Shown here in pieces: positions 2,338-20,020 of a stretch of DNA of 51,441 nucleotides. This DNA is from a gamma proteobacterium symbiont of Ctena orbiculata (GTDB taxonomy: Bacteria; Pseudomonadota; Gammaproteobacteria; Chromatiales; Chromatiaceae). Numbering within the stretch: position 1 is the stretch's first letter; the number at the start of each line of letters is the position of its first letter. The stretch is taken from NCBI GenBank assembly GCA_003094555.1, contig NATW01000124.1:1-51441 (forward strand), given 5' to 3'. The position numbers were made by a program, and so were the translations under genes. The notes beneath the pieces are model-generated. The model was given only the letters and a program-made list of their open reading frames with translations, was not told the origin of the DNA and did not search any database.

Positions 2338-2339
2338 CG

Positions 2340-3446: not shown

Positions 3447-3523
3447 ATCAGACAGCAATCCCTGGTTCTTTGCGGGCGAACAGGAGATTCATTCCACGCA
3501 TCATCGGACTGAGGTCGTCAGTT

Positions 3524-5232: not shown

Positions 5233-5284
5233 AGGAAACCATCAATGAGGATCAGGTATTAAGAATTCTATCCTACCTGGTAAA

Positions 5285-5317
5285 CAAAAAATCCACCAAC
5301 GCAGAGCGGTGATGGAT
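5285..5317 (-). terminator. Terminator-like hairpin between dsrP and dsrN
   Basis: On the transcribed (minus) strand two 12-base arms, 5306-5317 and 5291-5302, can pair with one mismatch and one G-U pair around a three-base loop, and the 3' arm runs straight into six T residues (5286-5291). This is the layout of a Rho-independent terminator, but it lies inside the operon, so it probably attenuates rather than stops transcription into dsrNRS. Confidence 0.6.
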
Positions 5318-5343
5318 CTTTAATCGTGAATAGGCAGTGTTGC

Positions 5344-6531: not shown

Positions 6532-6553
6532 ATGTTTCCAAGCTCCCTACAGA

Positions 6554-7306
6554 TCACAGGTTGAGGTAACGCACGCCGGTGTTCAACTCGAGGTCGGCCC
6601 GGATCTGTACTGAGTTGTGGGATTTGAGAACCCGGCTGATTTCGCTGTTCGGATCCTTCATATCACCAAATAGAATCGCACCATGCCCCTCCTTGGTACA
6701 GGCCTCCTGACAGGCTGTCTGCATCTCACCGGCATCTATCCTATGCACGCAAAGGGTGCAGGATTCGACACATCCCTTACCCCGCGGTGCATTCACAGAT
6801 TGACCCGATAGGGCTTCATGCACAAAGGAACGGGCCTTATAGGGACAGGCCATCATACAGTAGCGACAACCGATACAACGGTGGCGATCGACCAGTACCA
6901 CACCGTCTATGCGTTTGAATGATGCATTGGTGGGGCAGACATCGACACAGGGAGGATGCTCACAGTGCTGACACATCATCACCAGGCGATTGACGTGGCC
7001 GGTCTGCTTGTCCTTGAGTTTGACCGGACGAATCCAGACCGCATCGGTCTCAGGCCTGTCATGACCGGTCAGGCCGTGCTCACTGTTACAGGCATCGACA
7101 CAGCTACTGCATCCCTCGGCGCATTTATTGGAATCGATCAGCATCCCCCAGCGATGTTTGCCGGTTGCACCCGAATCTGCATCATCACTGCCGCTTGCAG
7201 CGTGCAATATTACACCGGGTGCCAGGGTCAACGCCCCAGCAGCTGCCAAGGTACCGCCGATGAACTGGCGGCGTTCTACGCTCGGCTGGTCACTTTTATC
7301 GCTCAT
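6554..7306 (-). CDS. dsrO: DsrO, Tat-exported ferredoxin-like iron-sulfur subunit
   Basis: A 250-residue periplasmic protein. The N-terminus carries a twin-arginine signal (ERRQFIGG followed by a hydrophobic Ala/Gly/Leu stretch to about residue 35). Sixteen-cysteine binding pattern for several [4Fe-4S] clusters is visible as CAEGCSSCVDAC, CQHCEHPPCVDVCP, CIGCRYCMMACP and CVESCTLC plus CQEAC. It passes electrons between DsrJ and DsrP. The start is the ATG at 7306, two bases after the dsrJ stop; an upstream in-frame extension inside dsrJ would bury the Tat signal and is rejected. Confidence 0.94.
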   Translation of the reverse strand: MSDKSDQPSVERRQFIGGTLAAAGALTLAPGVILHAASGSDDADSGATGKHRWGMLIDSNKCAEGCSSCVDACNSEHGLTGHDRPETDAVWIRPVKLKDKQTGHVNRLVMMCQHCEHPPCVDVCPTNASFKRIDGVVLVDRHRCIGCRYCMMACPYKARSFVHEALSGQSVNAPRGKGCVESCTLCVHRIDAGEMQTACQEACTKEGHGAILFGDMKDPNSEISRVLKSHNSVQIRADLELNTGVRYLNL

Positions 7307-7308
7307 GA

Positions 7309-7779
7309 TCAGTCTCTCTGTCTGCCAGCAGGCTGTTGCATATCCAAGGCATGGGTATGCACCTCCAAATGGTAACCAAGCGAGCTTCCGCTGCCGCTCT
7401 CCATGGGTGTAGTACGATGACACTGAAAGCAGGCCGGACTCACAGCAACGTAATCATGACAAGCCTGACAAAACTCGCCTTCGCTGGTAACCGATATACC
7501 TTGTCCGCTAGAATCCCTGGAGGCGTGGCAATCGATACACTCGGATAGACTGTATTTCAGTCCACGAATCCCATCCCTGACCGTATCGTCCCTACCATGT
7601 TGGAGGAAATCCATATGGTTGCGACGCATCACATCGGTGGGAGCGACACAGCTGTCCACTGAGGCTGCCTTTGAATTTTCGGTCACATATCGACTCTCAC
7701 CCATGGCCTGCATAGCGGGTAACAACAGACCTGCCAGCAGGATAATGAGGAGTCGCTTGCTGATGAGAGAACTACGCAT
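7309..7779 (-). CDS. dsrJ: DsrJ, triheme cytochrome c
   Basis: A 156-residue membrane-anchored periplasmic protein with an uncleaved signal-like helix (about residues 7-25) and three haem c motifs: C81-IDC-H85, C104-QAC-H108 and C117-FQC-H121. Cys44 lies in a conserved SCVAP segment upstream; in A. vinosum the equivalent cysteine is the unusual distal ligand that gives one haem His/Cys coordination. The start is the ATG at 7779, which puts the signal helix at the N-terminus; the open frame upstream overlaps dsrL and lacks similarity. It belongs to the DsrMKJOP complex. Confidence 0.93.
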   Translation of the reverse strand: MRSSLISKRLLIILLAGLLLPAMQAMGESRYVTENSKAASVDSCVAPTDVMRRNHMDFLQHGRDDTVRDGIRGLKYSLSECIDCHASRDSSGQGISVTSEGEFCQACHDYVAVSPACFQCHRTTPMESGSGSSLGYHLEVHTHALDMQQPAGRQRD

Positions 7780-7787
7780 CTCAGCTC

Positions 7788-9734
7788 CTATTCTCCTAAC
7801 CCCATCTGGATATATCCCGTAGGGCACACATCGGTACAAACATGGCAACCGATACACTTGTTGTAGTCGGTATCGACATATCGACCGGTGGTCGATTCCG
7901 TTTTCTTGACCCGGAATACCGCATCTTGAGGGCAGAACACGACACAGTTGTCGCACTCGAAACACATGCCGCAACTCATGCAGCGCTTGGCTTCGTCTTG
8001 AACCTGTTCCTGGTTCAAGCCGTTCATACGCTCCTTGAAGTGGTGCAGCACCTGATCCGCCGTAGGCACATCCTCCGAACGCAGCAGACGCGGTGTGAAA
8101 GAGAAGTGCCCCAGGTACAGATCGCCAGCAGGAATCACCTCGTGATATGAGCGATCCTCATAGTTGTGTACAGCAAACTTTGCGGTGTTGGTGCCACGCA
8201 GGTCATCCTCGTTCTTATCGAAAACTTCCGGCGACATATCTGTCTCTTCCAGCTTGTCTAGCAGATCGAAATGGTGCACATCCACCTTTGGACGTTTCGC
8301 CAGATCTTTTTTATTCAGATAGGCATCGATGCTTTCACAGGCGATTGAGGCCTGGCCGATGGCGGTGGTCAACAGATGCGGACGAATGATATCACCGGCC
8401 ACGAAATGACCTTCCTTGCCAGGTACCTGATAGAACTTATCCGCGTCCATCAGGTTTTTATCGTTGGCCATCTCTTCAAGCCCTTCCATATCGGCACTCT
8501 GACCGATGGCGGAGACGATGAGATCGGCTTCCAATACGCGTTCTGTACCCTCGGTGGGAATCGGGGTCATGCCATCCATGGTGCAGTCACATACCCTGAG
8601 GCCGGTGGCGCGACCGTTGTCACCAAGGATCACTTCCAGCGGCATCACACCGTCCAGGATCTCACACCCCTCATGCAGGGCATCGTGAATCTCGTGCTGC
8701 GCGGCAAACATCTTGTCCTTGGTGAACAAGGAGGTCAGGGTGGCGGCGGCAGGCTCTGCCCCATCGGCCAGGGCATCATCCTGGTTCATGCTGGTATCGA
8801 GTACCACCTCTTCGGGTTTACCGGCTGCGCTGTTAGTGCCCAGGCGTCTGGCCACAGAGATCACGTCGATAGAAGTATCACCACCACCGATACAGACAAC
8901 ATTCTTGGCGGTTACCTTCATGCGGCCTTCGTTGAAGGCCTTGAGGAAGGCCACACCGGAGACACAGTTGGGGGTACCGACCCAGCCATCCACCGGCAGA
9001 TCACGACCATTCTGGCAACCGAGGGCCCAGAGAATCGCATCGTGCTCTTTCTCGATATCGGCAACAGGCACATCGGCACCAATCTTGACACCGGTGCGGG
9101 TCTCGACACCCATGTCGAGAATGCGTTGGATCTCAGCCTGCAGCTTGTCGCGGGGGATACGATAGTTGGGAATGCCGTAACGCATCATACCGCCGAGCTC
9201 GGGATCCTTCTCGAAAACGGTCACCCCATGACCCATCTTGCGTAGCTGGAAGGCAGCCGCCATACCCGCGGGACCACCACCGATGACCGCCACCTTCTTA
9301 CCGGTATCGGTACCGGGGGTGAACTTGAAACCCTTCTCGATGGCAGTATCGCCGATGTACTGTTCCACCGCGTTGATACCGACGAAGTCTTCTACCTCGT
9401 TGCGGTTACAGCCATCCTGACAAGGTGCCGGACAGACTCTACCCATCATGGAAGGAAAGGGATTGGCCTCTACCGCACGCTCGAAGGCATACTGCTCCCA
9501 TTCCATACCCTCGGAAGGCTTCTCCTGCTCACGTACGATTGCCAACCAACCACGGATATCGTGACCAGACGGGCAGCTGCCCTGGCATGGGGGTGTACGA
9601 TTGATATAAGTGGGGCACTTGTAGGAGGTATCTTCAAGGAAGATTTTATCACCCCAATCATCCCATTCGGTTTCGCCGTCTTCAAAGCGGCGCCAAGTAA
9701 TCGGTTTTTTCATCTCTTCGCTAGGAGTTGCCAT
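7788..9734 (-). CDS. dsrL: DsrL, NAD(P)-dependent iron-sulfur flavoprotein oxidoreductase
   Basis: A 648-residue protein related to the small subunit of glutamate synthase. It has an N-terminal Fe-S region (C40, C50, C54, C101, C105, C109), an FAD dinucleotide fold (VAVIGGGPAG, about 148-157), a second nucleotide-binding fold (VVCIGGGDTSID) and a C-terminal domain with two [4Fe-4S] ferredoxin motifs (CMSCGMCFEC...CP, CIGCHVCTDVCP). In sulfur oxidisers DsrL is the electron acceptor of DsrAB and reduces NAD(P)+. A GAGGAG ribosome site precedes the ATG by seven bases. It lies 78 bases after dsrK. Confidence 0.95.
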   Translation of the reverse strand: MATPSEEMKKPITWRRFEDGETEWDDWGDKIFLEDTSYKCPTYINRTPPCQGSCPSGHDIRGWLAIVREQEKPSEGMEWEQYAFERAVEANPFPSMMGRVCPAPCQDGCNRNEVEDFVGINAVEQYIGDTAIEKGFKFTPGTDTGKKVAVIGGGPAGMAAAFQLRKMGHGVTVFEKDPELGGMMRYGIPNYRIPRDKLQAEIQRILDMGVETRTGVKIGADVPVADIEKEHDAILWALGCQNGRDLPVDGWVGTPNCVSGVAFLKAFNEGRMKVTAKNVVCIGGGDTSIDVISVARRLGTNSAAGKPEEVVLDTSMNQDDALADGAEPAAATLTSLFTKDKMFAAQHEIHDALHEGCEILDGVMPLEVILGDNGRATGLRVCDCTMDGMTPIPTEGTERVLEADLIVSAIGQSADMEGLEEMANDKNLMDADKFYQVPGKEGHFVAGDIIRPHLLTTAIGQASIACESIDAYLNKKDLAKRPKVDVHHFDLLDKLEETDMSPEVFDKNEDDLRGTNTAKFAVHNYEDRSYHEVIPAGDLYLGHFSFTPRLLRSEDVPTADQVLHHFKERMNGLNQEQVQDEAKRCMSCGMCFECDNCVVFCPQDAVFRVKKTESTTGRYVDTDYNKCIGCHVCTDVCPTGYIQMGLGE

Positions 9735-9812
9735 TCTCAGTCTCCTCTTGGAACTTGTCTTGGTCGTACCCTACCCTTGGTAGGAATCGTAGTTTGCGCT
9801 AGTTATCGTGTA

Positions 9813-11357
9813 CTATTCGTCATCATCGTCTTCGCCGTAGCCGGGGGCTTCCTCAGGCGGCGTCTTCCTGTTCAACACAATCGCGTTGCTTACCAGTTGA
9901 TGGACGCTGACGATCTGGAACATATCCATCCCGTAGTAGGGGAACACCTTGGTGAACTGGCTCTTACAGATCGCGCAGATCGCCGCCAGGTGGGTTACCC
10001 CCTTCTCCTCCATTACGTTCTTGAAAGCCGTCATGCGCGGCTTGGCGCCTTTGACGCGAACCTCCATCAGATCATCGGTCAGCAGACCGCCGCCACCACC
10101 ACAGCAAAAAGTGCGTTCATGGATAGTATCCCACTCCATGTCGTGGTAGTTGTTGACCACTGCCTTGATCACCTGGCGCGGGATCTCGAACTGCCCGCCC
10201 GGCTTGTCGCCCATGCGCGAGGCGCGGGCCACGTTGCAGGAGTCGTGGAAGGTGATCGACATCTCGTCGTTCTCCGACTTGTCGAACTCCAGGGTGCCCT
10301 TCTCGATCTCATTCAGGGTGAACTCGCAGATATGCTGCGGCACCGGATAGTCGGGATCGAGGAAATCGAAGGGACCGGCCAGGGTATTCAAAAAGCTGTA
10401 GGCGATACGCCAGGCGTGACCGCACTCGCCGAAGACGATGCGTTTAACGCCCAGCTCCAGGGCCGCCTCACGGATACGCAGGGAGACCCGGCGCATGTTC
10501 TCGTAGCTGCCGATGAACATACCGAAGTTACCCGCCTCGGATGCCTTGGTGCTCAGGGTCCAGCTGACACCGGCCTCGTGAAAGACCTTGCCGTAACCGA
10601 TCAGGCCGTCCACATGGGGCTCGGCGAAGAAGTCGGCGGAGGGGGTAACCAGCAGGATGTCGGCGCCCTTCACGTCGAGGGGATATTTCACCGCCACTTC
10701 GTCCTCATCCCAGACATCCTCTTCCAGACCTTCGAGGGTATCCAATATGGCGGGGCCCGGCAGGCCGAGGTTGTTACCGATCTTGTGCACCTTGCCGATG
10801 ATCTCGTTGCAGTACTTCTGGCCCACACCGATGGAGTCGAGGATCTCCCTCGCCGCCATGGAGATCTCGGCGGTATCGATGCCGTAGGGACAGAAGACCG
10901 AACAGCGACGGCACTGGGAACACTGGTGGAAGTAGCTGTACCACTCGTCGATCACCTCGTCGGTGAGATCGGCGGCGCCCACCAGCTTAGGAAAGTACTT
11001 ACCCGCAAAAGTGAAGTAGCGGCGATAGACCTTACGCAGCAGATCCTGGCGACCCACCGGCATGTTCTTCGGATCCTTGGTGCCGATGTAGTAGTGGCAT
11101 TTATCGGTACAGGAGCCGCACTTCACGCAGGCATCCATGAATACCTGCAGCCCACGATAGCGGCTCAGCAGATCACCCATCTTATCGATGGCGACCTCTT
11201 TCCAGTTCTCGAGTTTCTCTCCCGGAAAGCCCAAGTCGGTATTGTGCTCAGGCTTGGCCACGAAGCAGGTTACATGCTTCATGGTATCTTCAACCAGGTT
11301 TGGAACCTCGATAAATTCCGTCAGTTCCGGTGTTTCGAATTCAGCTGCTTTAGCCAT
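9813..11357 (-). CDS. dsrK: DsrK, HdrD-like catalytic iron-sulfur subunit
   Basis: A 514-residue cytoplasmic protein with two N-terminal [4Fe-4S] ferredoxin motifs (CVKCGSCTDKCHYYIG and CSQCRRCSVFCPYGID) and C-terminal CCG-type cysteine motifs (FGECGHAWR, HDSCNVAR, FCCGGGGGLL, CAICKSQF) that in heterodisulfide reductase HdrD bind the catalytic non-cubane cluster. DsrK is thought to act on the DsrC disulfide/trisulfide and feed electrons to DsrM. The C-terminus is strongly acidic (GEDDDDE). Confidence 0.95.
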   Translation of the reverse strand: MAKAAEFETPELTEFIEVPNLVEDTMKHVTCFVAKPEHNTDLGFPGEKLENWKEVAIDKMGDLLSRYRGLQVFMDACVKCGSCTDKCHYYIGTKDPKNMPVGRQDLLRKVYRRYFTFAGKYFPKLVGAADLTDEVIDEWYSYFHQCSQCRRCSVFCPYGIDTAEISMAAREILDSIGVGQKYCNEIIGKVHKIGNNLGLPGPAILDTLEGLEEDVWDEDEVAVKYPLDVKGADILLVTPSADFFAEPHVDGLIGYGKVFHEAGVSWTLSTKASEAGNFGMFIGSYENMRRVSLRIREAALELGVKRIVFGECGHAWRIAYSFLNTLAGPFDFLDPDYPVPQHICEFTLNEIEKGTLEFDKSENDEMSITFHDSCNVARASRMGDKPGGQFEIPRQVIKAVVNNYHDMEWDTIHERTFCCGGGGGLLTDDLMEVRVKGAKPRMTAFKNVMEEKGVTHLAAICAICKSQFTKVFPYYGMDMFQIVSVHQLVSNAIVLNRKTPPEEAPGYGEDDDDE

Positions 11358-11386
11358 TTGTTGCCCTCATCGGCCAAGCGATAAAT

Positions 11387-12109
11387 TTAAGAATCTTCAA
11401 GTTTTCTCGCCCACTCCACCAGGTGTCGCCTCTCTCGGGGATTGTCCACCTGGTTACGGGTCGGGCTGAAAAAGACACCTGGTATATGCAGCAGTTTGCT
11501 GAACGGCAGAAGCAGCATCAGCACTGCGACCAGGGTCAGATGGAGCAACAGGATGGGATCCATAGGCAGATCACCACCGCTGAAGGTCCAGAATCCGGTA
11601 AAAAACTTTTTAACAGCGACCACATCGGTGTGTACGACGAAGGTCATCATGGCGCCGCTCATACCGATCACGATCAGCAGTAGCAACCACAGATAGTCGG
11701 AGGGTGCGGAGATATAGCGAACGCGATCGACGAAGATTCTTCGGATCAGCAGTCCAGCGAGGCCAGCCAGCATGGCAAAGGCCGCATATTTACCAAACGG
11801 CTGAATCAGCTGAATTGGCAACCATACGGGATCGATAAAGTAGCGGACATGTCGCGCAAGTACCAGGAACAGGCCCATGTGGAACATCCAGGAAAATATC
11901 CAGGTCCACTTGGTGCTCTTGAAAAGGCTCTCAAAAAACACAACTTCGCGAAACATGCGCAACACGACACCGGTCTGATTCACAGGCGCCGGTGTGGTGG
12001 GAATCTTTAATGGAGCAGGCGTCTTGGCATACTGGACAATCTTTCTGGCCAGCCCAAGCACGAGCACTAAGGTCGCTACGATAAACAGCAACGCGTAGAC
12101 AGATGACAT
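11387..12109 (-). CDS. dsrM: DsrM, cytochrome b-type quinone-interacting membrane subunit
   Basis: A 240-residue integral membrane protein with five hydrophobic segments and several histidines placed in them (for example HMGLFLVLARH and LLHLTLVAV), as in the NarI-like DsrM family that carries haem b. It anchors DsrK and exchanges electrons with the quinone pool. The start is the ATG at 12109, which begins the first membrane helix (MSSVYALLF); a longer frame to 12169 would run into the dsrC/dsrM hairpin and is rejected. It ends 29 bases before dsrK. Confidence 0.93.
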   Translation of the reverse strand: MSSVYALLFIVATLVLVLGLARKIVQYAKTPAPLKIPTTPAPVNQTGVVLRMFREVVFFESLFKSTKWTWIFSWMFHMGLFLVLARHVRYFIDPVWLPIQLIQPFGKYAAFAMLAGLAGLLIRRIFVDRVRYISAPSDYLWLLLLIVIGMSGAMMTFVVHTDVVAVKKFFTGFWTFSGGDLPMDPILLLHLTLVAVLMLLLPFSKLLHIPGVFFSPTRNQVDNPRERRHLVEWARKLEDS

Positions 12110-12141
12110 GATCCTGCTTTCCTCAAATAGTGAACGGGCGA

Positions 12142-12169
12142 GTGGTGGATGGCCAAGGCCATCCACCAC
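12142..12169 (-). other. Perfect 13-bp hairpin between dsrC and dsrM
   Basis: The arms at 12142-12154 and 12157-12169 are perfectly complementary over 13 bases with a two-base spacer, giving a very stable RNA stem directly 3' of dsrC in the operon transcript. No T-run follows on the minus strand, so it is not a classical terminator. A stem of this kind would protect the dsrABEFHC part of the mRNA from 3' exonucleases and raise DsrC relative to the downstream membrane complex. Confidence 0.75.
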
Positions 12170-12181
12170 ATCTGCAGCTGT

Positions 12182-12514
12182 TTAGATACAGCCAGTAGGC
12201 TTGGGCAGGCCGGCGAAGCGGCAGGCCTGTTTACCAGGACCGTAAGGGAACAGTGCATACAGGTACTTGGAGTTACCTTTGTCCTTACCCAGTTTCTTAC
12301 CAACAGCCTTGGTCAGAACACGTACAGCAGGAGCGATCTGGTACTCTTCATAGTACTCACGCAGGAAGTTGATGATCTCCCAGTGCTCGTCGGTCAGAGG
12401 CAGATCATCCTCAGCAGCCATTGCCTCGGCAACAGCGGGTTCCCAATCAGCCAGATTGGTGAGGTAACCCTCTTCATCAGTTTCGAAGGTTTTGCCGTTA
12501 GCTTCGATAGCCAT
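12182..12514 (-). CDS. dsrC: DsrC, sulfur carrier and substrate protein of DsrAB
   Basis: A 110-residue DsrC/TusE family protein with the two strictly conserved C-terminal cysteines of true DsrC: Cys98 and Cys109 (penultimate residue), spaced C-x10-C, in the flexible arm QACRFAGLPKPTGCI. The persulfide on the penultimate cysteine is oxidised by DsrAB, and the resulting DsrC trisulfide or disulfide form is processed by DsrMKJOP. It follows dsrH by 44 bases and has an AGAGAA ribosome site. A second, cysteine-free copy lies at 18309. Confidence 0.97.
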   Translation of the reverse strand: MAIEANGKTFETDEEGYLTNLADWEPAVAEAMAAEDDLPLTDEHWEIINFLREYYEEYQIAPAVRVLTKAVGKKLGKDKGNSKYLYALFPYGPGKQACRFAGLPKPTGCI

Positions 12515-12558
12515 ATTTTCTCTCCCAGATAGAGTTGAAATTTATTCAGTTAAAACAA

Positions 12559-12864
12559 TCAGACCCAAGCCTGTACCTTGTCATTCTCGGCAGCGAGAGA
12601 GACAAACTTGGCGTAGTCCACTATTTCAATGCCATCAGCGACCTTTTCTTCGCTTACACCGCGAGCCTTGAGGTCGGGGCCCAGCACATAGAAATTAACA
12701 CCGTCTTTGGCGGCAATCTTCTGTGTACAGTCAGTGCCCTTGATCGCACCATAAATGCCGTCTTCGTACATAAGGACCGAACTGCCTGCCTTGGCGTAGG
12801 CCAGACAGCTATCCATTGAAGACTTTTCAAAAGGTGATTTGTTAACAGTATGTAGGGTACTCAT
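12559..12864 (-). CDS. dsrH: DsrH, subunit of the DsrEFH sulfurtransferase
   Basis: A 101-residue TusB/DsrH family protein; starts MSTLHTVNKSPF as typical for the family and contains the conserved Cys20 (MDSC). With DsrE and DsrF it forms a cytoplasmic alpha2-beta2-gamma2 hexamer that passes sulfur to DsrC. It lies 15 bases after dsrF. Length and order (E-F-H-C) are canonical. Confidence 0.95.
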   Translation of the reverse strand: MSTLHTVNKSPFEKSSMDSCLAYAKAGSSVLMYEDGIYGAIKGTDCTQKIAAKDGVNFYVLGPDLKARGVSEEKVADGIEIVDYAKFVSLAAENDKVQAWV

Positions 12865-12879
12865 TAAATCGTCTCCGCC

Positions 12880-13290
12880 TTAGAAGCTGAACATGACATC
12901 TTGTTCTTCCATGATGTCCGCCATTTCCGCACGACTGACCACACGGATAGAGTCCTTCTCTGCCCAGTCGTCATCCTCATCCTCGTAGGTGAGAGGCATC
13001 AGGTCTTCCAAGGTCAGCCCCCGCTCCTCCAGTGACTCTTTCTCTACATACAGTTTGGTAACATCGTAATCACCAAGCGCCTGATAGGTGGGCGAGAAGT
13101 TCTTCATATCCACCCCGGCTGTATCCTGCCCTTTGACCAACTGATAGACACCGTCATCCAGAAAAGCCAGACTGACATCCTGGTCGAACGCAGCGCCGAT
13201 CAATACAACCTCCAGAGACTCCCAGGCGTAGATGGTGCCGTAGGGGGCCCGACGGTTGAGGTACATGAATTTTTTAATATCTTCAGACAT
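12880..13290 (-). CDS. dsrF: DsrF, subunit of the DsrEFH sulfurtransferase
   Basis: A 136-residue TusC/DsrF family protein with the RRAPYGTIYAWESLEVVLI N-terminal strand-helix typical of the family and no cysteine, in keeping with its structural role in the DsrEFH hexamer. The start is taken as the ATG at 13290, six bases after an AGGGG ribosome site; a second ATG sits immediately upstream at 13293 and would add one residue. Confidence 0.94.
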   Translation of the reverse strand: MSEDIKKFMYLNRRAPYGTIYAWESLEVVLIGAAFDQDVSLAFLDDGVYQLVKGQDTAGVDMKNFSPTYQALGDYDVTKLYVEKESLEERGLTLEDLMPLTYEDEDDDWAEKDSIRVVSRAEMADIMEEQDVMFSF

Positions 13291-13305
13291 CATCAACCCC
13301 TATGC

Positions 13306-13698
13306 TCAATCACCGAATACCATAAGACGTTCCGACTGGATGCCTGCCTCGACCAACTGACCGAGACCGGAGATGCGAAATCCTTCAGCGATGTTCTGCG
13401 CATCCTTGCCGTTGCGCTGCATCTCACCCTCGTCGACGATACCCCGTCGCTGGGCGGCTGCTACGCAGACCACCAGATCGAGATCGTGTTGTTTACCCAG
13501 TTCGGACCAACGCTTGACGATATTACGATCGTCCTGTGGAGGCGTGGTCAGATTGGTGCCATTGTTGACACCGTCGTGATAGAAGAAGACACGCATGATC
13601 TCGTGTCCAGCTTCCAATGCAGCCTTGGTGAACTGGTATGCGGAGTCCGTGGCTTGATGCTGATAGGGACCCTCATTAACCTGAATCGCGAATTTCAT
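13306..13698 (-). CDS. dsrE: DsrE, catalytic subunit of the DsrEFH sulfurtransferase
   Basis: A 130-residue TusD/DsrE protein with the active cysteine Cys78 in DLVVCVAAAQRRG, the residue that carries persulfide sulfur and hands it to DsrC in A. vinosum. The N-terminal KFAIQVNEGPYQHQATDSAYQF block is typical. It lies 26 bases after dsrB and has a GGAAGG ribosome site a few bases before its ATG. Confidence 0.96.
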   Translation of the reverse strand: MKFAIQVNEGPYQHQATDSAYQFTKAALEAGHEIMRVFFYHDGVNNGTNLTTPPQDDRNIVKRWSELGKQHDLDLVVCVAAAQRRGIVDEGEMQRNGKDAQNIAEGFRISGLGQLVEAGIQSERLMVFGD

Positions 13699-13724
13699 CA
13701 GTAGACCTTCCTGTTATTACCGAA

Positions 13725-14795
13725 TTAGAAACGGATATGCGCAGAGGCATTCAGGTTGTTACGACTGCCACGCCAGTTATCGATGTGATACTTGGTGAAC
13801 GGCAGACCGGTCTTCTCGAAGAATTTCGGCCAACCGATACGCTCAGCCCACTCACCGATACGCTCCCAATCCTTGGCATCCTCTTTGTAGGCGCCGAGAA
13901 TCTGTTTGACGACGGTGGAAACCTCCGGCCAACGGGGCGGATTGTTCGGCACACCGGCGGCAACCAGCTTGTGGAAGGTCGGCTTGGAACGGGCATTGGA
14001 GTTCTTTCCACCTACCCAGATAGCGAACTTGGAGTGCTCCGGATCATTGATCTGCATCGGCGGACAAGGTGGGAAGCAGGCACCGCAGCAGATGCACTTC
14101 TTCTCGTCCACTTCCAACGAGGGTTTGCCGTTGACCATCGCAGGACGGATAGCGGCCACCGGGCAGCGCGCCACAACCGAAGGACGCTCACAGACATTGG
14201 CGACCTGGGTATGGTCGATCTTCGGTGGCTTGGTGTGCTGGATATTGATCGCGATATCACCCTGGCCGCCACAGTTGATCTGGCAGCAGGAGGTGGTAAT
14301 GCGCACCCGGTTGGGCATCTCTTCCTTGGTGAACTCATCGTAGAGATCATCCATCAGGGCCTTCACCGCACCAGAGGCGTCGGTACCGGGGATATCACAA
14401 TGCAGCCAACCTTGAGTATGGGAGATCATGGAGACCGAAGGACCGGTACCGCCGATGGGAAAGCCTTCTGATTCCAGCTTGTCGATCAGCGGTTGAACCT
14501 TGGACTCATCGCTGACCATATACTCGATATTTGAGCGAATGGTGAAGCGGACATAGCCTTCGGCAAATTCGTCGGCGATATCCATCAGCTTGCGGATGGT
14601 ATAGACATCCATCTGGCGCTGGGTACCGGCACGCACGGTCCAGACACTGTCACCGCTCTTGGCGACATGCACCAGCACGCCGGGACGCGGGCGCTCATGA
14701 TAAGCCCACTGGCCGTAGTTTTTCTTCAACACGGGGTGTAAGTAGGGCTCCATCTCCGGGACGCCACTCTCAATCGGCATACGAACTTCCGACAT
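13725..14795 (-). CDS. dsrB: Reverse dissimilatory sulfite reductase, beta subunit
   Basis: A 356-residue protein of the dissimilatory sulfite reductase family. Cluster-binding cysteines are visible at 133, 170/171 and 175 (TTSCCQINCGGQGD), and a ferredoxin insertion has CERPSVVARCP (211) plus C234, C237, C240, C244 (CICCGACFPPCPP). With DsrA it forms the alpha2-beta2 enzyme that oxidises DsrC-bound sulfur to sulfite in the cytoplasm. The start is ATG 14795 behind a strong GGAGGT site; an in-frame start four codons earlier overlaps that site. A hairpin lies in the 101-base gap to dsrA. Confidence 0.97.
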   Translation of the reverse strand: MSEVRMPIESGVPEMEPYLHPVLKKNYGQWAYHERPRPGVLVHVAKSGDSVWTVRAGTQRQMDVYTIRKLMDIADEFAEGYVRFTIRSNIEYMVSDESKVQPLIDKLESEGFPIGGTGPSVSMISHTQGWLHCDIPGTDASGAVKALMDDLYDEFTKEEMPNRVRITTSCCQINCGGQGDIAINIQHTKPPKIDHTQVANVCERPSVVARCPVAAIRPAMVNGKPSLEVDEKKCICCGACFPPCPPMQINDPEHSKFAIWVGGKNSNARSKPTFHKLVAAGVPNNPPRWPEVSTVVKQILGAYKEDAKDWERIGEWAERIGWPKFFEKTGLPFTKYHIDNWRGSRNNLNASAHIRF

Positions 14796-14834
14796 ACCTA
14801 CCTCCAAAAAAATAGGGTAATTGATTCGTTTTAA

Positions 14835-14862
14835 GGGGCAATCGGGCGAACCCGTTGCCCCC
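14835..14862 (-). other. Stable hairpin between dsrA and dsrB
   Basis: In the dsrA-dsrB gap the arms GGGGCAA-CGGG (14835-14846, one bulged base) and CCCG-TTGCCCC (14851-14861) pair around a four-base loop that reads TTCG on the transcribed strand. There is no T-run. It may be an RNA-processing or stability element controlling the ratio of the two subunits. Confidence 0.6.
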
Positions 14863-14896
14863 CTTACAATTTGCTATCAGTCAGCAGCGGAATGGA

Positions 14897-16141
14897 TTAT
14901 TGAGCCGCCTTTTGCTCAGCCCACTTGGCTGCCTCTTCCTCCCATCCATCCATACGGACATAGGGATTCATTCGCGGACGCTCGATCATGTTGGGATCGA
15001 TCTCGAGGCCGACACCTTCCAGGAAGTTGACCAGACCGATACGCTCGATCATCTCACCGGTACGCTCGTGCTCGAGGGCGTTCTCGGCAAAGAAGTCGAG
15101 GATCTCGGTCGCCAGCTCTTCCAGCCATTCGAAGTCGTCGTCGGTCTCCAGCTTGTGGAAAGGCACGATCACTGTACCCATCAGATCACCGATCTTGAGA
15201 GTACGCTTACCGCCGCAGAGCAGGGTGATACCCTTGTCGTCGCCGGGAGAGAGCGCCTTGTTCATGACGTTGATGCAGTGCATGCAACGGACACAGGAGG
15301 GGTTGTCCACCGCCAGGGTATCATCGTCGTTCAGCGACAGGGCCTGGGTCGGGCAACGGGTGATGACATTGTCGATAACATACTTACGGCCTTTCTCGGT
15401 CACGAACTTCTTGACCTCATCCTGGTCGACCTTCATGTCGTCGCGCCAGGTACCGATGGTAGCCAGGTCGGCACGCTGCACGGAGTTCATGCAGTCGTTG
15501 GGGCAACCTGAAACCTTATACTTGAATTTGTAGGGCAGTGCGGGACGATGCATGTCGTCGAGGGCGTTGTTGACCAGCATGCGCATGGTACGGCCCTCGT
15601 CGAAGCAGGAGTTCTCGCAGCGAGCTGCACCAACACAGGACATACCGGTACGCACTGCGGGACCGGCGCCACCGAGATCGAAGCCCATCTCGTTGATCTC
15701 ATCGAAAGCGGGCTGGACATTGTCGGTGGAACAGCCCTGGAACATGATGTCGCCGGACTGGCCGTGGAAGGCGATCAGGCCGGAGCCATACTTCTCCCAG
15801 ATGTCGCAGAATTTGCGAATGGTGTTGGTGTCATAGTGCATGCCTGGAGGGGGCATGACGCGAAGCGTGTGGAACTCGGCCGCCGCGGGGAACAGGGCCT
15901 CTCCGTCGTCATTCTTGAGTTCGGTAAAGCGGGGGATGATACCGCCACCATAACCGAGCACGCCAACTGTACCGCCCTTCCAGTAACCCTTGCGTGTCTC
16001 GTATGAGGTCTCCAGCTGACCCAGCAGGTCAACCATCATGTCGTTATCTTTGGCGAGGCGCTTGAGGCCGGTGACAAACGAGGGCCAGGGGCCGCTCTCC
16101 AGCTGGTCAAGCATGGGGGTATCATGCATCTGTTTTGCCAT
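14897..16141 (-). CDS. dsrA: Reverse dissimilatory sulfite reductase, alpha subunit
   Basis: A 414-residue protein with the sirohaem-[4Fe-4S] binding pattern C169-x5-C175 ... C213-x3-C217 and a ferredoxin domain with C263, C283, C286 and C289, all as in DsrA of oxidative (reverse) type. With DsrB it carries out the six-electron oxidation of DsrC-bound sulfur to sulfite. It is the first gene of a fifteen-gene operon. The start is the ATG at 16141, eight bases after GGGAG; an upstream in-frame GTG/ATG extension of five codons would overlap that site and is not favoured. Confidence 0.97.
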   Translation of the reverse strand: MAKQMHDTPMLDQLESGPWPSFVTGLKRLAKDNDMMVDLLGQLETSYETRKGYWKGGTVGVLGYGGGIIPRFTELKNDDGEALFPAAAEFHTLRVMPPPGMHYDTNTIRKFCDIWEKYGSGLIAFHGQSGDIMFQGCSTDNVQPAFDEINEMGFDLGGAGPAVRTGMSCVGAARCENSCFDEGRTMRMLVNNALDDMHRPALPYKFKYKVSGCPNDCMNSVQRADLATIGTWRDDMKVDQDEVKKFVTEKGRKYVIDNVITRCPTQALSLNDDDTLAVDNPSCVRCMHCINVMNKALSPGDDKGITLLCGGKRTLKIGDLMGTVIVPFHKLETDDDFEWLEELATEILDFFAENALEHERTGEMIERIGLVNFLEGVGLEIDPNMIERPRMNPYVRMDGWEEEAAKWAEQKAAQ

Positions 16142-16318
16142 CACTCTTTCTCCCAATGGTCGTTTTCTTTCAGGTCTTCTGCTGATTCTTCGCCTGATGT
16201 TTTAGCTGCGCCAAACACCCTGACAGAAAAAACCGGCCACCGACCTGCAATCCGAAACCGTTACAGGCAACCGGCCTGTTTCTACTGGTGCGAATTTTAG
16301 GGATGTCTAATGCTGACC

Positions 16319-16376
16319 AATATCCTTCCGATGGGGGGGAAAGGGATATTTATGACTATCCCATTTGGGATATATT
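16319..16376. promoter_or_regulatory. GGGATAT palindrome cluster, candidate operator
   Basis: Positions 16357-16372 read TATCCCA-TT-TGGGATA, a perfect 7-bp inverted repeat. Just to its left the same half site occurs again as an imperfect pair, AATATCC near 16319 and AAGGGATATT near 16340. Four GGGATAT-type half sites within about 60 bp, roughly 180-230 bp before dsrA, suggest binding of a dimeric regulator. Confidence 0.5.
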
Positions 16377-16497
16377 TTCACGAAAATCGGGGTAAAAAGG
16401 CTCAAAAATGAACAAAGTTTATTTTTATATACAACAACTTAAAGTCCATAATTCATTTCTAATATTCAATATAGTCCCTTACTTTCACCAGGGTAGG

Positions 16498-16521
16498 TTT
16501 TACCGATAAACTTGGGTAAAA
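16498..16521. promoter_or_regulatory. Inverted repeat TTTTACC-N10-GGTAAAA
   Basis: Perfect 7-bp arms (16498-16504 and 16515-16521) separated by 10 bp lie about 100 bp upstream of the first possible start codon of the plus-strand cassette. Spacing and symmetry fit an operator for a helix-turn-helix dimer. No T-run follows the arms in either direction. Confidence 0.4.
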
Positions 16522-16623
16522 GACCCTTGATCATACATCGCACATGCGGTTCAATATGAATAACCGAGTATTTTACTGCGATTTTGCCGCGGCAGTCGCC
16601 AGACCACATGGATTAAATCAAAG

Positions 16624-16800
16624 ATGCTGTATTTGAGTGAGTTAATGATGCAACACCCAGAGGTCGACAACTTCGACAGACTGCTGGAGGTGGTGAAAGA
16701 GCGTTCAAAGACCGAGATGTTCTTTCGCATCGATGTCAAACCCCCCTTCAGCGACACCCCCGACAACTGGGAAGACCGCCTCGAAGCGACTTTCACCTAG
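16624..16800 (+). CDS. Possible small protein at the head of the Cas6-like cassette
   Basis: An open frame of 58 codons from ATG 16624, or 51 from ATG 16645, ending with TAG at 16800, 40 bases before the next gene. The longer tail reads as a plausible protein (VDNFDRLLEVVKERSKTEMF and then FRIDVKPPFSDTPDNWEDRL) with GC-rich third positions like its neighbours. A GAGTGAG sequence precedes the second ATG. No family recognised. The case rests on codon character and on its place at the front of the cassette. Confidence 0.45.
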   Translation: MLYLSELMMQHPEVDNFDRLLEVVKERSKTEMFFRIDVKPPFSDTPDNWEDRLEATFT

Positions 16801-16840
16801 GGGCTGTTGACAGACCCCAGTAGCAACCGGGAATACCATT

Positions 16841-17557
16841 GTGAAGTACCTAGAATCTGAAGCCTTTATCGGTGACAACGACAGTTCGGAAGACGCCATA
16901 AAGTCGAGCAAGCTGCTGCAGCTAAAACTCGATGAAAAATGTGAGGCCTTGTCTGCCCTGCCTGAGGACGCCTCCCACGACAAGCGATTCGAACTGCAAC
17001 TTGAATCCGCCTATATCCTGCTCGACCTGGACAGGCAGCAGGAGGCCTGGGAGATTGCCAAGGGTGTGCTGGAGCAGGCCCTCGACCAGGAGCTGTGGCT
17101 GAGGGCCGTGGAGGCCTGTGACATCCTATACCAATCCGAACGAGCGGACGCGGTAAAGGCGCTGGCTCATGGTATTTGGCTGGGTGTCACCTTCCCCATC
17201 GATCCTGAACTGAGTGTGGCCATCCTGCAGCATCTCATCGACGAGACCCCCGACAACTCGGATGGGGCCGCAGTGGCCGCTGCGACGGCCTGCTATGTGG
17301 TGGATATCCGTGCCCAGGGAGAGGAGCGTGAGGATCTCAAATTCTTTACCAACCAGCTACTGGGCCAGGTCGCCAGGCGCCACAGTCAGGTGGAGGAGCA
17401 GGAGATTTTCGATTTCTGGGTGGAACGCATGGAGCTGGACGATCCGGGCAAGTTTCTACCCAGGCTGGCCAAAGTACTCGAGGTCATCGTCGAGGACGAC
17501 TGGTGGTTCGATCGGGATGCCCTGCGGGGGAAAATCCCAGCCGACGAGGTGCATTGA
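16841..17557 (+). CDS. Helical protein of unknown function upstream of Cas6-like gene
   Basis: A 238-residue acidic, almost entirely helical protein without signal peptide or membrane segment. Helix pairs such as AYILLDLDRQQEAWEIAKGV and LWLRAVEACDILYQS resemble TPR-like repeats, which usually mediate protein contacts, but I cannot assign a family. The start is GTG at 16841. Its TGA stop is followed directly by the ATG of the Cas6-like gene, so the two are surely one transcription unit and may be stoichiometric partners. Confidence 0.8.
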   Translation: MKYLESEAFIGDNDSSEDAIKSSKLLQLKLDEKCEALSALPEDASHDKRFELQLESAYILLDLDRQQEAWEIAKGVLEQALDQELWLRAVEACDILYQSERADAVKALAHGIWLGVTFPIDPELSVAILQHLIDETPDNSDGAAVAAATACYVVDIRAQGEEREDLKFFTNQLLGQVARRHSQVEEQEIFDFWVERMELDDPGKFLPRLAKVLEVIVEDDWWFDRDALRGKIPADEVH

Positions 17558-18226
17558 ATGAATGCGATGTTCTGGCAGGAAGATACGGATGAGGCACAGT
17601 TTGTGGTGCCCGATAATGTGGTTGACCTGATCTTCAAGATCAACTGTCCCACCCTACCCGTCGACCATGCCTGGCCCCTCTCCGACGCGATACATCAAGC
17701 GCTGCCCTGGTTTGCCGAAGAGCCCCAGGCCGGACTCCATCTGGTATATGGCGCCGATTCCGGGAACGGCTGGGAACGGCCCAGCCAAGCCTCAGAGACC
17801 CTCTATCTCTCCCGTCGCACCCCCCTGATCCTGCGCTTGCCAAAACAGCGGCTCGAGGATGCCGCCGAACTCTCCGGCAAAACCCTGCAGATCGACGGCA
17901 ACAGGATGGAGATCGGGGCTGCCCATAGCCGGTTTCTCGCCATGACCACAACCCTCTACTGTCGCCATCTCATCTGCGAAGCGGATCAGAGTGAGGACGA
18001 TTTCATGCAGTCCGCGGTGGAATCCTTGCGCTCACTCAACCTGAGGTTTAAGAAAGTGTTGTGCGGTAAAGGCGCCTCCTTCACCACACCCCAAACACCT
18101 GCCACGACCCGCAGCCTGATGGTCTCAGGCATGTCGCTGGAGGATGCGGTCACCCTGCAGGAGTATGGTATCGGACCTCACCGCAATCGCGGTTTTGGCT
18201 TGTTTGTTCCACACAAGACTGTATAA
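17558..18226 (+). CDS. Cas6/Cmx6-like RAMP-fold protein, no CRISPR array nearby
   Basis: A 222-residue protein resembling the Cas6 family of the MYXAN subtype (Cmx6). The N-terminus VVPDNVVDLIFKINC...LPVDHAWPLSDAIHQALPW and the C-terminal glycine-rich loop GIGPHRNRGFGLFVPH (204-219) are typical of that RAMP family; the loop normally contacts crRNA repeat RNA. Conserved histidines (37, 46, 208, 219) could serve in RNA cleavage, though I cannot say which. No other cas gene and no repeat-spacer array is visible in the window. It starts right after the helical protein gene and lies 82 bases before the DsrC paralogue, divergent from dsr. Confidence 0.75.
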   Translation: MNAMFWQEDTDEAQFVVPDNVVDLIFKINCPTLPVDHAWPLSDAIHQALPWFAEEPQAGLHLVYGADSGNGWERPSQASETLYLSRRTPLILRLPKQRLEDAAELSGKTLQIDGNRMEIGAAHSRFLAMTTTLYCRHLICEADQSEDDFMQSAVESLRSLNLRFKKVLCGKGASFTTPQTPATTRSLMVSGMSLEDAVTLQEYGIGPHRNRGFGLFVPHKTV

Positions 18227-18308
18227 GATACTGCGCCAGGAAATACATTAACCCCTATCTAGACGGGCACTGACCCCGCTTGTTGTATCTGTTTGAAAGG
18301 AGAGATCA

Positions 18309-18653
18309 ATGGCATATGAAGTAAACGGTAAAACCATCGAGGCCGACGCCAACGGCTACCTGGCCGATCACACTGACTGGAGTGAGGATGTGGCCAAGGC
18401 CATCGCCGCGAGCGAGGGTCTCGAGCTGAGCGAAAAGGCCTGGGAGATCATCAACTACCTGCGCGACGAGTATTTCAATAACGGTGGCAACCAACCCAAT
18501 GAACGCCACATGGTCAAACATTTCAAGGGAGCCTGGACCGACGAGGGCAAAGTGGATGCAAAATCCCTCTATATTCACTTTCCCAAGGGCCCGGCGAAGC
18601 AGGCGAGCAAGGTTGCCGGTCTGCCTGAGACCAAGCGCAAGGGTGGTTACTGA
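18309..18653 (+). CDS. DsrC/TusE-like paralogue lacking both cysteines
   Basis: A 114-residue DsrC fold protein: VNGKTIEADANGYLADHTDW, then EKAWEIINYLRDEYF, then the C-terminal arm KGPAKQASKVAGLP align with the true DsrC at 12182. Both functional cysteines are gone: Ser100 stands where DsrC has Cys98, and the tail ends KRKGGY without the penultimate cysteine. The protein has no cysteine at all, so it cannot carry sulfur. Cys-less DsrC homologues have been proposed to have a regulatory role (RspA type). A strong AAAGGAGAG ribosome site precedes the ATG, indicating good expression. Confidence 0.9.
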   Translation: MAYEVNGKTIEADANGYLADHTDWSEDVAKAIAASEGLELSEKAWEIINYLRDEYFNNGGNQPNERHMVKHFKGAWTDEGKVDAKSLYIHFPKGPAKQASKVAGLPETKRKGGY

Positions 18654-18686
18654 TCCCTTACCGGTTCAGTAAAACTGCTCCCCTGT

Positions 18687-18732
18687 GGTAGCACCCTACC
18701 CTGTACCTACGCTTGCAGGGTACGGGGCTACC
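18687..18732. repeat. Long imperfect hairpin between converging genes
   Basis: Two 17-base arms (18687-18703 and 18716-18732) pair with two mismatches around a 12-base loop. The element lies between the convergent DsrC-like gene and the SYLF gene, so it may end transcription from both sides, but no T-run follows. A smaller palindrome with a similar core occurs at 38406-38431. Confidence 0.5.
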
Positions 18733-18784
18733 GCAGCAACTCACTGAAACGACCTGCCGAATCCAGCTAAAAAGACAGCTATTG

Positions 18785-19351
18785 TCATTTCGGGGTGTAC
18801 TCGAACTTCTGGCCGCCAAGTGAGGCCTCCACCATCAGCCCTCCCTTGGCTATGGTGAAAACAGCCATACCTTTGTAATACCGGCCAACGTTGTCTGCAT
18901 CATGTTGACCACCGCTGGTCCCCGCGGAACTGCCGGTGGTGGTCGCCGTGGCGGAAGCGCCTGCGGTAATCGCCACTGCCGTGGCCTGGGCGCCGAACTC
19001 GAAGTTGCTGCCGATGAACTCATTAAAGGCGCGCTGATCCTGGAAAAAGATAATCTGGCTGAATGTCTGCCCCCCCAATTGCAATCCAAGGGTAAGCTGG
19101 GTCATCTTTACATCCCCCGTGTGAGTCCCCTGGGCATAGACCCTGCCTGTGCCATAGGCGCCACCCACAATCAGACCACCCTTACCCACATCGGGAAACA
19201 CCGCGTATCCATAGGCGGTATCGAAGAAGCGGCTGCTTTCACCCGCCTGACTGAAGAGATCGATGGTCGCCTGAAATTCATCCGCCCAGGCCTGGGAGAT
19301 TGGCAGCAACAGGATCAGCATCAGCCATACGCTCGAGACTATTCTCTTCAT
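18785..19351 (-). CDS. Secreted SYLF (Ysc84-like) lipid-binding domain protein
   Basis: A 188-residue protein with a cleavable signal peptide (residues 1-23, ending SQAWA) and the SYLF/Ysc84 domain: FFDTAYGYAVFPDVGKGG, LIVGGAYGTGRVY, LGLQLGGQTFSQIIFF and the C-terminal GMAVFTIAKGGLMVEASLGG. SYLF domains bind phospholipid, and bacterial members are periplasmic or outer-membrane associated. A low-complexity Ala/Thr/Ser/Gly loop interrupts the middle. The start is ATG 19351 after a GAGGAG site. Confidence 0.9.
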   Translation of the reverse strand: MKRIVSSVWLMLILLLPISQAWADEFQATIDLFSQAGESSRFFDTAYGYAVFPDVGKGGLIVGGAYGTGRVYAQGTHTGDVKMTQLTLGLQLGGQTFSQIIFFQDQRAFNEFIGSNFEFGAQATAVAITAGASATATTTGSSAGTSGGQHDADNVGRYYKGMAVFTIAKGGLMVEASLGGQKFEYTPK

Positions 19352-19394
19352 CAAAAACTCCTCACATTGTTGTTATGAAAATAACCAGACAGGA

Positions 19395-19418
19395 CCAGGG
19401 CCTGTTGACAGGCCCTGG
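19395..19418. repeat. Perfect palindrome of the GGGCCTGTTGACA repeat family
   Basis: CCAGGGCCTGT and its exact complement flank a two-base spacer (11-bp arms). The core GGGCCTGTTGACA recurs at 39461-39477, and in degenerate form at 16800-16818, each time next to a gene end. It behaves like a small REP-type intergenic repeat. Confidence 0.5.
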
Positions 19419-19465
19419 ATTACCTGGCGCTTGTGACAGGCGGACGATAAAGTGGTTCCCCCACA

Positions 19466-19930
19466 TCATTGGCGAAACAGCTCAATCACATGGTTTCGTT
19501 TGTCGTTGCTGCGCCAAATCATGTAGTCCCGATCGACGACTTCGTAGGTACCCGAGCTGTTCGCGTCCTGATAGAGGTTTTCACCGATCTCCACATAGTG
19601 CACCCCTTTACCCCTTCCTACAGGAATTACATAGTAACCGTCGTAGGATTTCTGGAAGCGGTTGACCTTACCACTGCGCATGCCCCAACTCCCGCTGATA
19701 TTATAGATAACCGGCTGTTCTTCGTAGTATCCCGTCTGTTGATATCCAGCCTCGTGGTACGCCTCTTCTCGACCACCTTGTCGACTGCCAGCGTAATCTG
19801 CCTGCTGCTGGGCGGCCACTTGGGCGATTGCGCTGAACAGGGCCTTAAAGGCGCTGCCGGTGTCACCGGCGTGGGCTGAAAAAGAGACCAGGATAAGAGC
19901 GGCGGCGGCGGTGTATTTGATAGATTTCAT
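19466..19930 (-). CDS. Small secreted protein of unknown function, WRSNDKRN family member 1
   Basis: A 154-residue protein with a signal peptide (MKSIKYTAAAALILVSFSAHA). The mature part has a Gln/Tyr-rich middle and a C-terminal domain with IYNISGSWGMRSG, YDGYYVIPVGRG and DYMIWRSNDKRNHVIELFRQ. The lipoprotein at 20243 shares this domain (YDG-IVTP, WRSNDKRNKVIKL), so the two divergently transcribed genes are paralogues. The start is ATG 19930 after GGAG. A CCGAAC-N17-CGCTTT promoter-like element lies 62 bases upstream. No function is known to me. Confidence 0.8.
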   Translation of the reverse strand: MKSIKYTAAAALILVSFSAHAGDTGSAFKALFSAIAQVAAQQQADYAGSRQGGREEAYHEAGYQQTGYYEEQPVIYNISGSWGMRSGKVNRFQKSYDGYYVIPVGRGKGVHYVEIGENLYQDANSSGTYEVVDRDYMIWRSNDKRNHVIELFRQ

Positions 19931-19991
19931 GGCTGTTCTCCAATAAGAATTTGTAATCTTGGCGGTAGCGAAACCGCTACCCTCACTGATC

Positions 19992-20020
19992 AAAGCGCCA
20001 GTTCAATGGAGATCGTTCGG
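19992..20020 (-). promoter_or_regulatory. ECF-type promoter candidate, CCGAAC-N17-CGCTTT
   Basis: On the minus strand CCGAAC (20020-20015), 17 bases, then CGCTTT (19997-19992), 62 bases before the ATG of the secreted protein at 19930. Spacing and the GAAC core fit a -35/-10 pair for an ECF sigma factor. The identical arrangement precedes two other secreted-protein genes in this island. Confidence 0.6.

Follow-up and report, generated by a model that had tools for sequence, protein, structure and literature searches.

The reverse dissimilatory sulfite reductase (rDsr) pathway is among the main routes by which bacteria oxidize sulfur; DsrC is a protein-docking carrier, and its relative TusE functions in tRNA thiolation. 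A genetic system exists for Allochromatium vinosum. The Cas6/Cmx6 proteins belong to a different setting, namely the type I-MYXAN (I-B-like) version of the CRISPR (clustered regularly interspaced short palindromic repeats)-Cas systems. The dsr cluster of A. vinosum is given as dsrABEFHCMKLJOPNRS in the available part of its description (PMC3368242). Here we describe a locus in which a Cas6 homologue and a DsrC paralogue stand side by side, on the 51,441-nucleotide contig NATW01000124.1 (assembly GCA_003094555.1) of a gammaproteobacterial symbiont of Ctena orbiculata, the whole of which we call the window. Judged by its named relatives, the best match among them at 80% identity, the window belongs in or near Candidatus Thiodiazotropha, a group of lucinid clam symbionts. 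The cassette codes for a small protein (SM), a helical protein (HEL), the Cas6 homologue and the DsrC paralogue (DSRC2), and is divergent from dsrA (Table 1). We are close to certain that this is a branch of Cas6 outside CRISPR, and that its conserved cassette, which is linked to the oxidative dsr operon, also holds a mostly Cys-less DsrC with an altered arm, usually SM, and either HEL or a further small protein (P5). That the homologue still binds, and probably cuts, RNA, making the cassette an RNA-level regulator of Dsr, is tentative and in our judgment falls somewhat short of an even chance; our best explanation, which joins the linked cassette to such regulation, has as a whole a probability of roughly 0.4.

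The linkage to dsr was surveyed in 146 genomes of the same GTDB family, 369 of the class and 398 of the phylum, with Alphaproteobacteria and Chlorobi outside this coverage, and in 80 named loci, which are the best 80 of at least 570 related stretches. Across the family, PF09559 Cas6 is present in 131 of the 146 genomes (55 of 61 genera), while TIGR02064 (dsrA) matches in 139 at E <= 0.001 and exceeds its cut-off in 121. Counting as strong a best E of 1e-69 or better (125 genomes, i.e. those 121 and four with partial genes), Cas6 is found in 124 of the 125 genomes with strong dsrA and in 7 of the 21 others. The distance from dsrA is 1,298-2,747 bases for 108 of the 131 family Cas6 genes (median 1.74 kb), each of the 108 being divergent from it; in the other 23 genomes the Cas6 contig has no dsrA match, with many of the genes near contig ends by coordinate and a true relocation in one of them, G059. 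At the level of the class, Cas6 occurs in 118 genomes, dsrA (E <= 1e-60) in 117 and both in 110, such that Cas6 is present in 110 of 117 dsrA-bearing as against 8 of 252 other genomes (Fisher P = 1.5e-74, a purely descriptive value as it ignores phylogeny), and 80 of 82 same-contig pairs lie 0.66-4.5 kb apart, all 80 divergently. Among the named loci a DsrA match is seen in 60, strong in 57, and the arrangement is divergent in 57/57. Even in five genomes of just 1.0-1.1 Mb (L167-L171), SM, Cas6 and DSRC2 are retained divergent from dsrA. In the phylum sample, where all 24 other genomes shown are of the same class and which consequently says little on other classes, PF09559 was found in 5 of 398 genomes including the window's own; the other four (L188-L191) again have it divergent from dsr clusters. 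These four distant loci combine Cas6 with a DsrC relative ending in GKGGY and have no SM or HEL match, which implies that the shared core is Cas6 plus an arm-altered DsrC. The conservation across dsr-bearing genomes, for which the initial annotation had proposed a survey, is thus strong, and a divergent cassette that accompanies rDsr at these frequencies is probably a missing working part of it.

The evidence also places this Cas6 outside CRISPR. Neither a k-mer nor a tandem-repeat scan detected a CRISPR array in the window, and the cassette has no cas neighbors there. The window's own genome has one PF09559 gene and no match to Cas1 or Csm1; its five Cas3-core matches stay below the cut-off (at most 47.2 of 102.45 bits), in a search that also gives matches in 14 of 14 control genomes. 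The initial annotation had seen no repeat-spacer array or other cas gene here, and had regarded a CRISPR array and cas operon elsewhere without a cas6 of their own, or a lack of conservation of the cassette in other dsr-bearing genomes, as refuting its proposal; a Cas6 homologue outside CRISPR tied to sulfur oxidation is upheld by the Cas1, Csm1 and Cas3 searches of the own genome and by the strong conservation with dsr. Cas1 is present in 99 of the 146 family genomes, and Cas6 occurs in 92 of these 99 and in 39 of the 47 Cas1-less ones (Fisher P = 0.08); with a stricter Cas1 call the counts are 76 of 81 and 55 of 65. A repeat-spacer scan of 198 sequences gave four positives: a cas1 locus (L032), a cyanobacterial plasmid with cas genes (L196) and two loci (L148, L181) with three-unit repeats 6.7 kb or more from Cas6. 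The presence of Cas6 beside dsr regardless of whether CRISPR is present points to an undescribed helper of sulfur oxidation, probably one acting on RNA.

A phylogenetic tree of 51 Cas6 rows (32 gammaproteobacterial dsr-linked, four distant dsr-linked, five cyanobacterial CRISPR, one from Gloeobacter and nine second copies) recovers the 32 gammaproteobacterial rows on one side of a branch with 100/99 support, and a 100/100 branch of length 1.02 separates these and the four distant dsr-linked rows from the five cyanobacterial CRISPR Cmx6 proteins, the Gloeobacter row and the nine second PF09559 copies, four of which are 6-9 kb from a Cas1 gene. The CRISPR comparators are those five of the six cyanobacterial Cas6 matches in plasmid records that have cas neighbors. 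The sixth, from the Gloeobacter plasmid L192 (NZ_CP063846.1, 5977-6768), is annotated as Cas6/Cmx6 with no cas gene annotated nearby and was kept apart; its neighbors are hypothetical genes, a phosphoadenylylsulfate (PAPS)-reductase-family gene and a cupin gene, and it may be a further instance of Cas6 employed outside CRISPR.

The Cas6 homologue had been described in the initial annotation as a Cmx6-like protein with a loop of the repeat-associated mysterious protein (RAMP) type, and the profile search suggested there agrees: PF09559 matches with 179.1 bits against a cut-off of 26.7 (E = 1.2e-52), six PADLOC Cas6 models match too, and TIGR02807 (cas6_cmx6) scores 94.8 bits, slightly below its equivalog cut-off of 98.85, so that the protein does not qualify as an equivalog. 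The loop, GIGPHRNRGFGLF, is present, with G204, G212 and G214 in 81/81 and G206 in 80/81 aligned dsr-linked sequences. The predicted model (48 alignment rows; predicted local distance difference test, pLDDT, 89.6; predicted template modeling score, pTM, 0.86) has its best PDB structure match in the Cas6 of a type I-B CRISPR-associated transposon (CAST; 8fcu_B, TM 0.80), with Pyrococcus Cas6 at a TM of ~0.6; a sequence-profile search of PDB gave a single clear match, 8fcj_B (E = 3.7e-25). As modeled, the dsr-linked homologue is a Cas6 fold retaining the RAMP glycine-rich loop. His37, at the start of the first helix and around the position where we take the catalytic His of other Cas6 proteins to sit, is found in 81/81 gammaproteobacterial dsr rows, 5/5 CRISPR rows and 8/9 second copies, and Arg93 and the glycine loop are kept in gammaproteobacterial, CRISPR and distant rows alike; His61 is present in 79/81 gammaproteobacterial rows and is not general elsewhere. 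W72, R74 and P75 of an NGWERP insert are present in 80-81 of the 81 gammaproteobacterial rows and in none of the five CRISPR and four distant rows, with R at position 74 in one of the nine second copies; family f110 keeps W72 and lacks R74 and P75.

DSRC2 matches the DsrC family PF04358 with 112.4 bits, as well as the TusE/DsrC/DsvC subfamily model, and it contains no Cys, the conserved cysteines of the C-terminal arm of carrier DsrC being missing. It is found in 72 of the 80 named loci. All 78 relatives examined end in RKGGY; 68 are wholly Cys-free, and five have a Cys elsewhere within the last 25 residues. That the arm end is invariant and free of Cys suggests a protein that docks and does not transfer sulfur. 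Cys-less DsrC relatives are reported to be named as regulatory (RspA) in a review, which did not turn up in the literature searched. The parts of PMC5944118 available to us place a DsrC-like gene, THSYN_22565, near dsr genes and cite DsrC as binding DNA upstream of dsr. In one genome of family f110 (G254) the RKGGY DsrC lies ~7.7 kb from Cas6. In A. vinosum the order SM-HEL-Cas6 is found beside dsr and the RKGGY paralogue 306 kb away at 1,749,514; we equate the latter with Alvin_1508 by the order of the five TusE/DsrC genes rather than by annotation. As far as the available portion of a pyrite transcriptome study goes, Alvin_1508 falls (log2 fold change -2.92) along with dsrA (-4.72) and dsrB (-4.45) and to a greater extent than dsrC (-1.25), and three other TusE/DsrC paralogues rise (PMC11267869). 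This fall alongside dsrAB adds support to a working partnership with rDsr, as co-regulation in one data set that speaks to no mechanism.

The remaining partners are less familiar proteins. SM belongs to no Pfam family; its profile finds the protein conserved in 76 of the 80 named loci and detects it in 128 of the 146 family genomes. Cas6 is present in each of these 128, and a Cas6 match without one to SM is seen in three further genomes (G022, G048, G115). HEL has no significant Pfam or NCBIfam family; its AlphaFold2 model is all-helical (pLDDT 90.1) and matched nothing in PDB at E <= 0.001. It occurs in 47 of the named loci, whereas in 24 others, all without HEL, P5 (~70 aa; no clear Pfam match, best E 0.048) lies downstream of Cas6. 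The two are mutually exclusive in 80/80 loci, nine having neither. All four cassette genes are on the plus strand within 16624-18653, with dsrA opposite, and the stop codon of HEL abuts the ATG of the Cas6 gene. The initial annotation had rightly recognized the common direction, the divergence from dsrA, the helical protein, the Cas6 homologue and the Cys-less DsrC paralogue, and had not described the fourth gene, SM. Carriage of the cassette by viruses was considered and rejected, no relative having been found in the viral contigs or phage records searched. Median within-genus ratios of nonsynonymous to synonymous substitution (dN/dS) are 0.044 for SM, 0.073 for HEL, 0.049 for DSRC2 and 0.136 for Cas6, the least constrained of the seven proteins compared, with 0.030, 0.025 and 0.069 for DsrA, DsrB and DsrC; each rests on 10 sequences with dS near saturation, pairs with dS >= 3 being dropped to leave 22 to 45 of 45. 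By this sequence-based measure all four cassette proteins are under purifying selection.

The class-level exceptions mostly look like contig cuts. Of the seven genomes with dsrA only, one (G224) starts at a contig edge; inspection of the six others found four (L229, L230, L231, L234) cut close to dsrA or holding a cut SM or HEL. Among the eight with Cas6 only, two (L174, L177) have part of dsrA at the edge of the contig and in five (L172, L173, L176, L178, L179) the contig ends within 1.3 kb of the cassette. Three are not accounted for in this way: L232, L233, where the cassette is absent from at most 1.8 kb upstream of dsrA, and the Cas6-only L175. The two far-apart Cas6-dsrA pairs of the class both come from family f110. 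In this family (L164, L165, L166) Cas6 lies, away from dsrA, divergently beside a gene that we take, by its motif, to resemble RNase III. Several observations weigh against our explanation. G039 has dsr genes and no Cas6 match in its genome; in L232 no cassette is present in 10.7 kb of sequence upstream of dsrA; and in genomes of the Beggiatoaceae type (Thiomargarita, Marithrix and Parabeggiatoa; L119, L123, L125, L127, L161) SM and Cas6 occur together with no dsrA around them in the DNA examined, which for L161 is only 5.6 kb. On the protein side, the position of His37 is occupied by Tyr in one of the four distant dsr-linked rows and by Asn in the CAST Cas6 8fcj_B, and therefore this His need not be catalytic. 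Further, no single protein holds the coupling role, HEL and P5 standing in for one another.

The linkage to dsr, the purifying selection and the retention of RAMP features point to a working partner of rDsr that probably acts on RNA. We envisage that DSRC2, with its RKGGY arm, would dock where DsrC docks but could not carry sulfur there, and might in this way indicate if the sulfur relay is engaged. SM with HEL or P5 would couple the state of the relay to the Cas6 homologue, which would then tune how stable a target RNA is or how it is processed. In its most specific form, this amounts to a ribonuclease that senses sulfur load: a carrier-dead DsrC would sense how far the Dsr relay is occupied and, via SM and HEL or P5, switch a Cas6-derived nuclease that edits the pool of dsr (or sulfur-globule) transcripts. 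This version is speculative and, as a complete account, rather unlikely. If true, a primary energy pathway would have an RNA-processing enzyme of the CRISPR type as a core regulator throughout the dsr-bearing Gammaproteobacteria, including those with genomes of only ~1 Mb.

A different account dispenses with RNA altogether: the Cas6 fold, together with SM, HEL or P5 and the DsrC paralogue, might be a protein-binding scaffold with a part in assembling or gating DsrAB, DsrEFH or DsrMKJOP. The minimal shared pair of Cas6 and an arm-altered DsrC, the nature of DsrC as a protein-docking carrier and the absence of His37 from one of four distant rows would all suit it, whereas a pure scaffold has no need of a His37 invariant across the gammaproteobacterial rows or of a glycine loop and Arg93 kept across the gammaproteobacterial, CRISPR and distant rows; we deem it unlikely, if a serious contender. 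In the model of the initial annotation, the Cas6 homologue processes dsr mRNA, possibly at hairpins of the dsr operon, among them those it gave at 14835 and 12142 (Table 1). Hairpins with z < -2 do recur after dsrA (40/68 loci) and dsrC (41/64), more rarely after dsrB (15/64), which would favor cutting there; however, the stem sequences differ among the loci displayed (L084-L163), such hairpins commonly stabilize operon transcripts, and G039, with no Cas6 match, keeps both hairpins (z -3.9 and -3.9) as well as the palindrome considered below. Being one genome, G039 is a weak test with a contrary result; given this persistence we did not adopt the hairpin model, which is improbable. A shared hairpin as the Cas6 substrate was likewise rejected, the hairpins recurring by position with unlike stems.

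Another RNA could be the target, e.g. a tRNA in the sulfur-transfer branch of TusE, given the match of DSRC2 to the TusE/DsrC/DsvC model and the role of TusE in tRNA thiolation. Yet the distribution of the cassette tracks dsrA rather than tRNA thiolation in general, and DSRC2 is without the terminal Cys required for the relay, making this alternative quite improbable. Least credible is an ordinary crRNA (CRISPR RNA)-processing Cas6 serving arrays in trans. Its membership in the Cas6 family and its presence in most Cas1-bearing family genomes might be cited for it, but it is also present in most Cas1-less ones, the own genome has no Cas1 or Csm1 match, and it forms a clade separate from the second PF09559 copies, which are on the CRISPR side of the tree and in four of nine cases near Cas1; we give it hardly any credence.

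Between dsrA and SM lies the palindrome TATCCC-N4-GGGATA, a single site in the 4.07 Mb of the own genome. It recurs in 40 of 226 loci (some genomes being represented twice). Of its 42 sites, one duplicates that of the window, and the other 41 all lie on the dsrA side upstream of SM. It accompanies conserved elements on that side, whereas SM may be anything from 154 to 1308 bases away. Both features disfavor the palindrome as an RNA substrate and fit a DNA operator of dsr better; it is a candidate for a dedicated dsr operator. No Rfam family reached its gathering score in 2000-20000 of the window.

Table 1. Coordinates of the cassette, its surroundings and the P5 examples (positions in the window unless a locus or residues are named)
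Feature	Position	Strand	Remarks
SM (58 aa), first cassette gene	16624-16800	+	conserved small protein; named here
HEL (238 aa; GTG start)	16841-17557	+	helical solenoid, tetratricopeptide repeat (TPR)-like
Cas6 homologue, dsr-linked branch (222 aa)	17558-18226	+	PF09559 profile match
Candidate catalytic His of Cas6 homologue	residue 37
NGWERP insert of Cas6 homologue	residues 70-75
RAMP glycine loop of Cas6 homologue	residues 204-216
DSRC2 (DsrC paralogue, Cys-less, C-terminus RKGGY)	18309-18653	+	PF04358
dsrA, first gene of divergent dsr operon	14897-16156	-	TIGR02064 match 14909-16111, E 5.8e-166
Palindrome TATCCC-N4-GGGATA between dsrA and SM	16357-16372	.	candidate dsr promoter operator
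Hairpin between dsrA and dsrB	14833-14863	-	fold in window
Hairpin between dsrC and dsrM	12142-12169	-	12-bp stem
P5 examples	L116:11252-11467, L141:11231-11458		also in 44 other loci

The literature searched has no description of a link between Cas6 and dsr; subscription journals are mostly outside its coverage and may hold such a report. Nor is one mentioned in the available parts of PMC10952691, PMC5944118, PMC10504309, PMC11267869, PMC13293266, PMC3368242, PMC4136832, PMC7596348 and PMC11406059. The cassette represents a clear case of Cas6 use outside CRISPR that is directly testable in A. vinosum, and it suggests that many proteins named Cas6/Cmx6 in databases may not be CRISPR proteins.

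In comparison with the known systems, the dsr-linked homologue shares with the Cas6/Cmx6 of type I-MYXAN CRISPR-Cas (PF09559/TIGR02807; 8fcj, 8fcu) the profile match, the glycine loop and the His37 position (5/5 cyanobacterial CRISPR rows) and, going by the predicted model, the overall fold of the type I-B CAST Cas6 8fcu (TM 0.80). It differs from them in having no cas neighbors in the window, in forming a separate clade (100/100 branch), in its own N-terminal W6 and NGWERP insert, whose W72 is absent from the five CRISPR rows and the nine second copies, and in its partners, which are SM, HEL or P5, and DSRC2. Relative to the DsrC/TusE/DsvC sulfur carriers (PF04358), DSRC2 is similar in length and nearly identical in the arm up to AGLP, beyond which RKGGY (78/78) takes the place of the Cys-bearing end of DsrC. 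Finally, in A. vinosum the order dsrABEFHCMK is as in L217 and SM-HEL-Cas6 is likewise divergent beside dsr, whereas the published cluster, in the part of PMC3368242 available, starts at dsrA and leaves the cassette unnamed.

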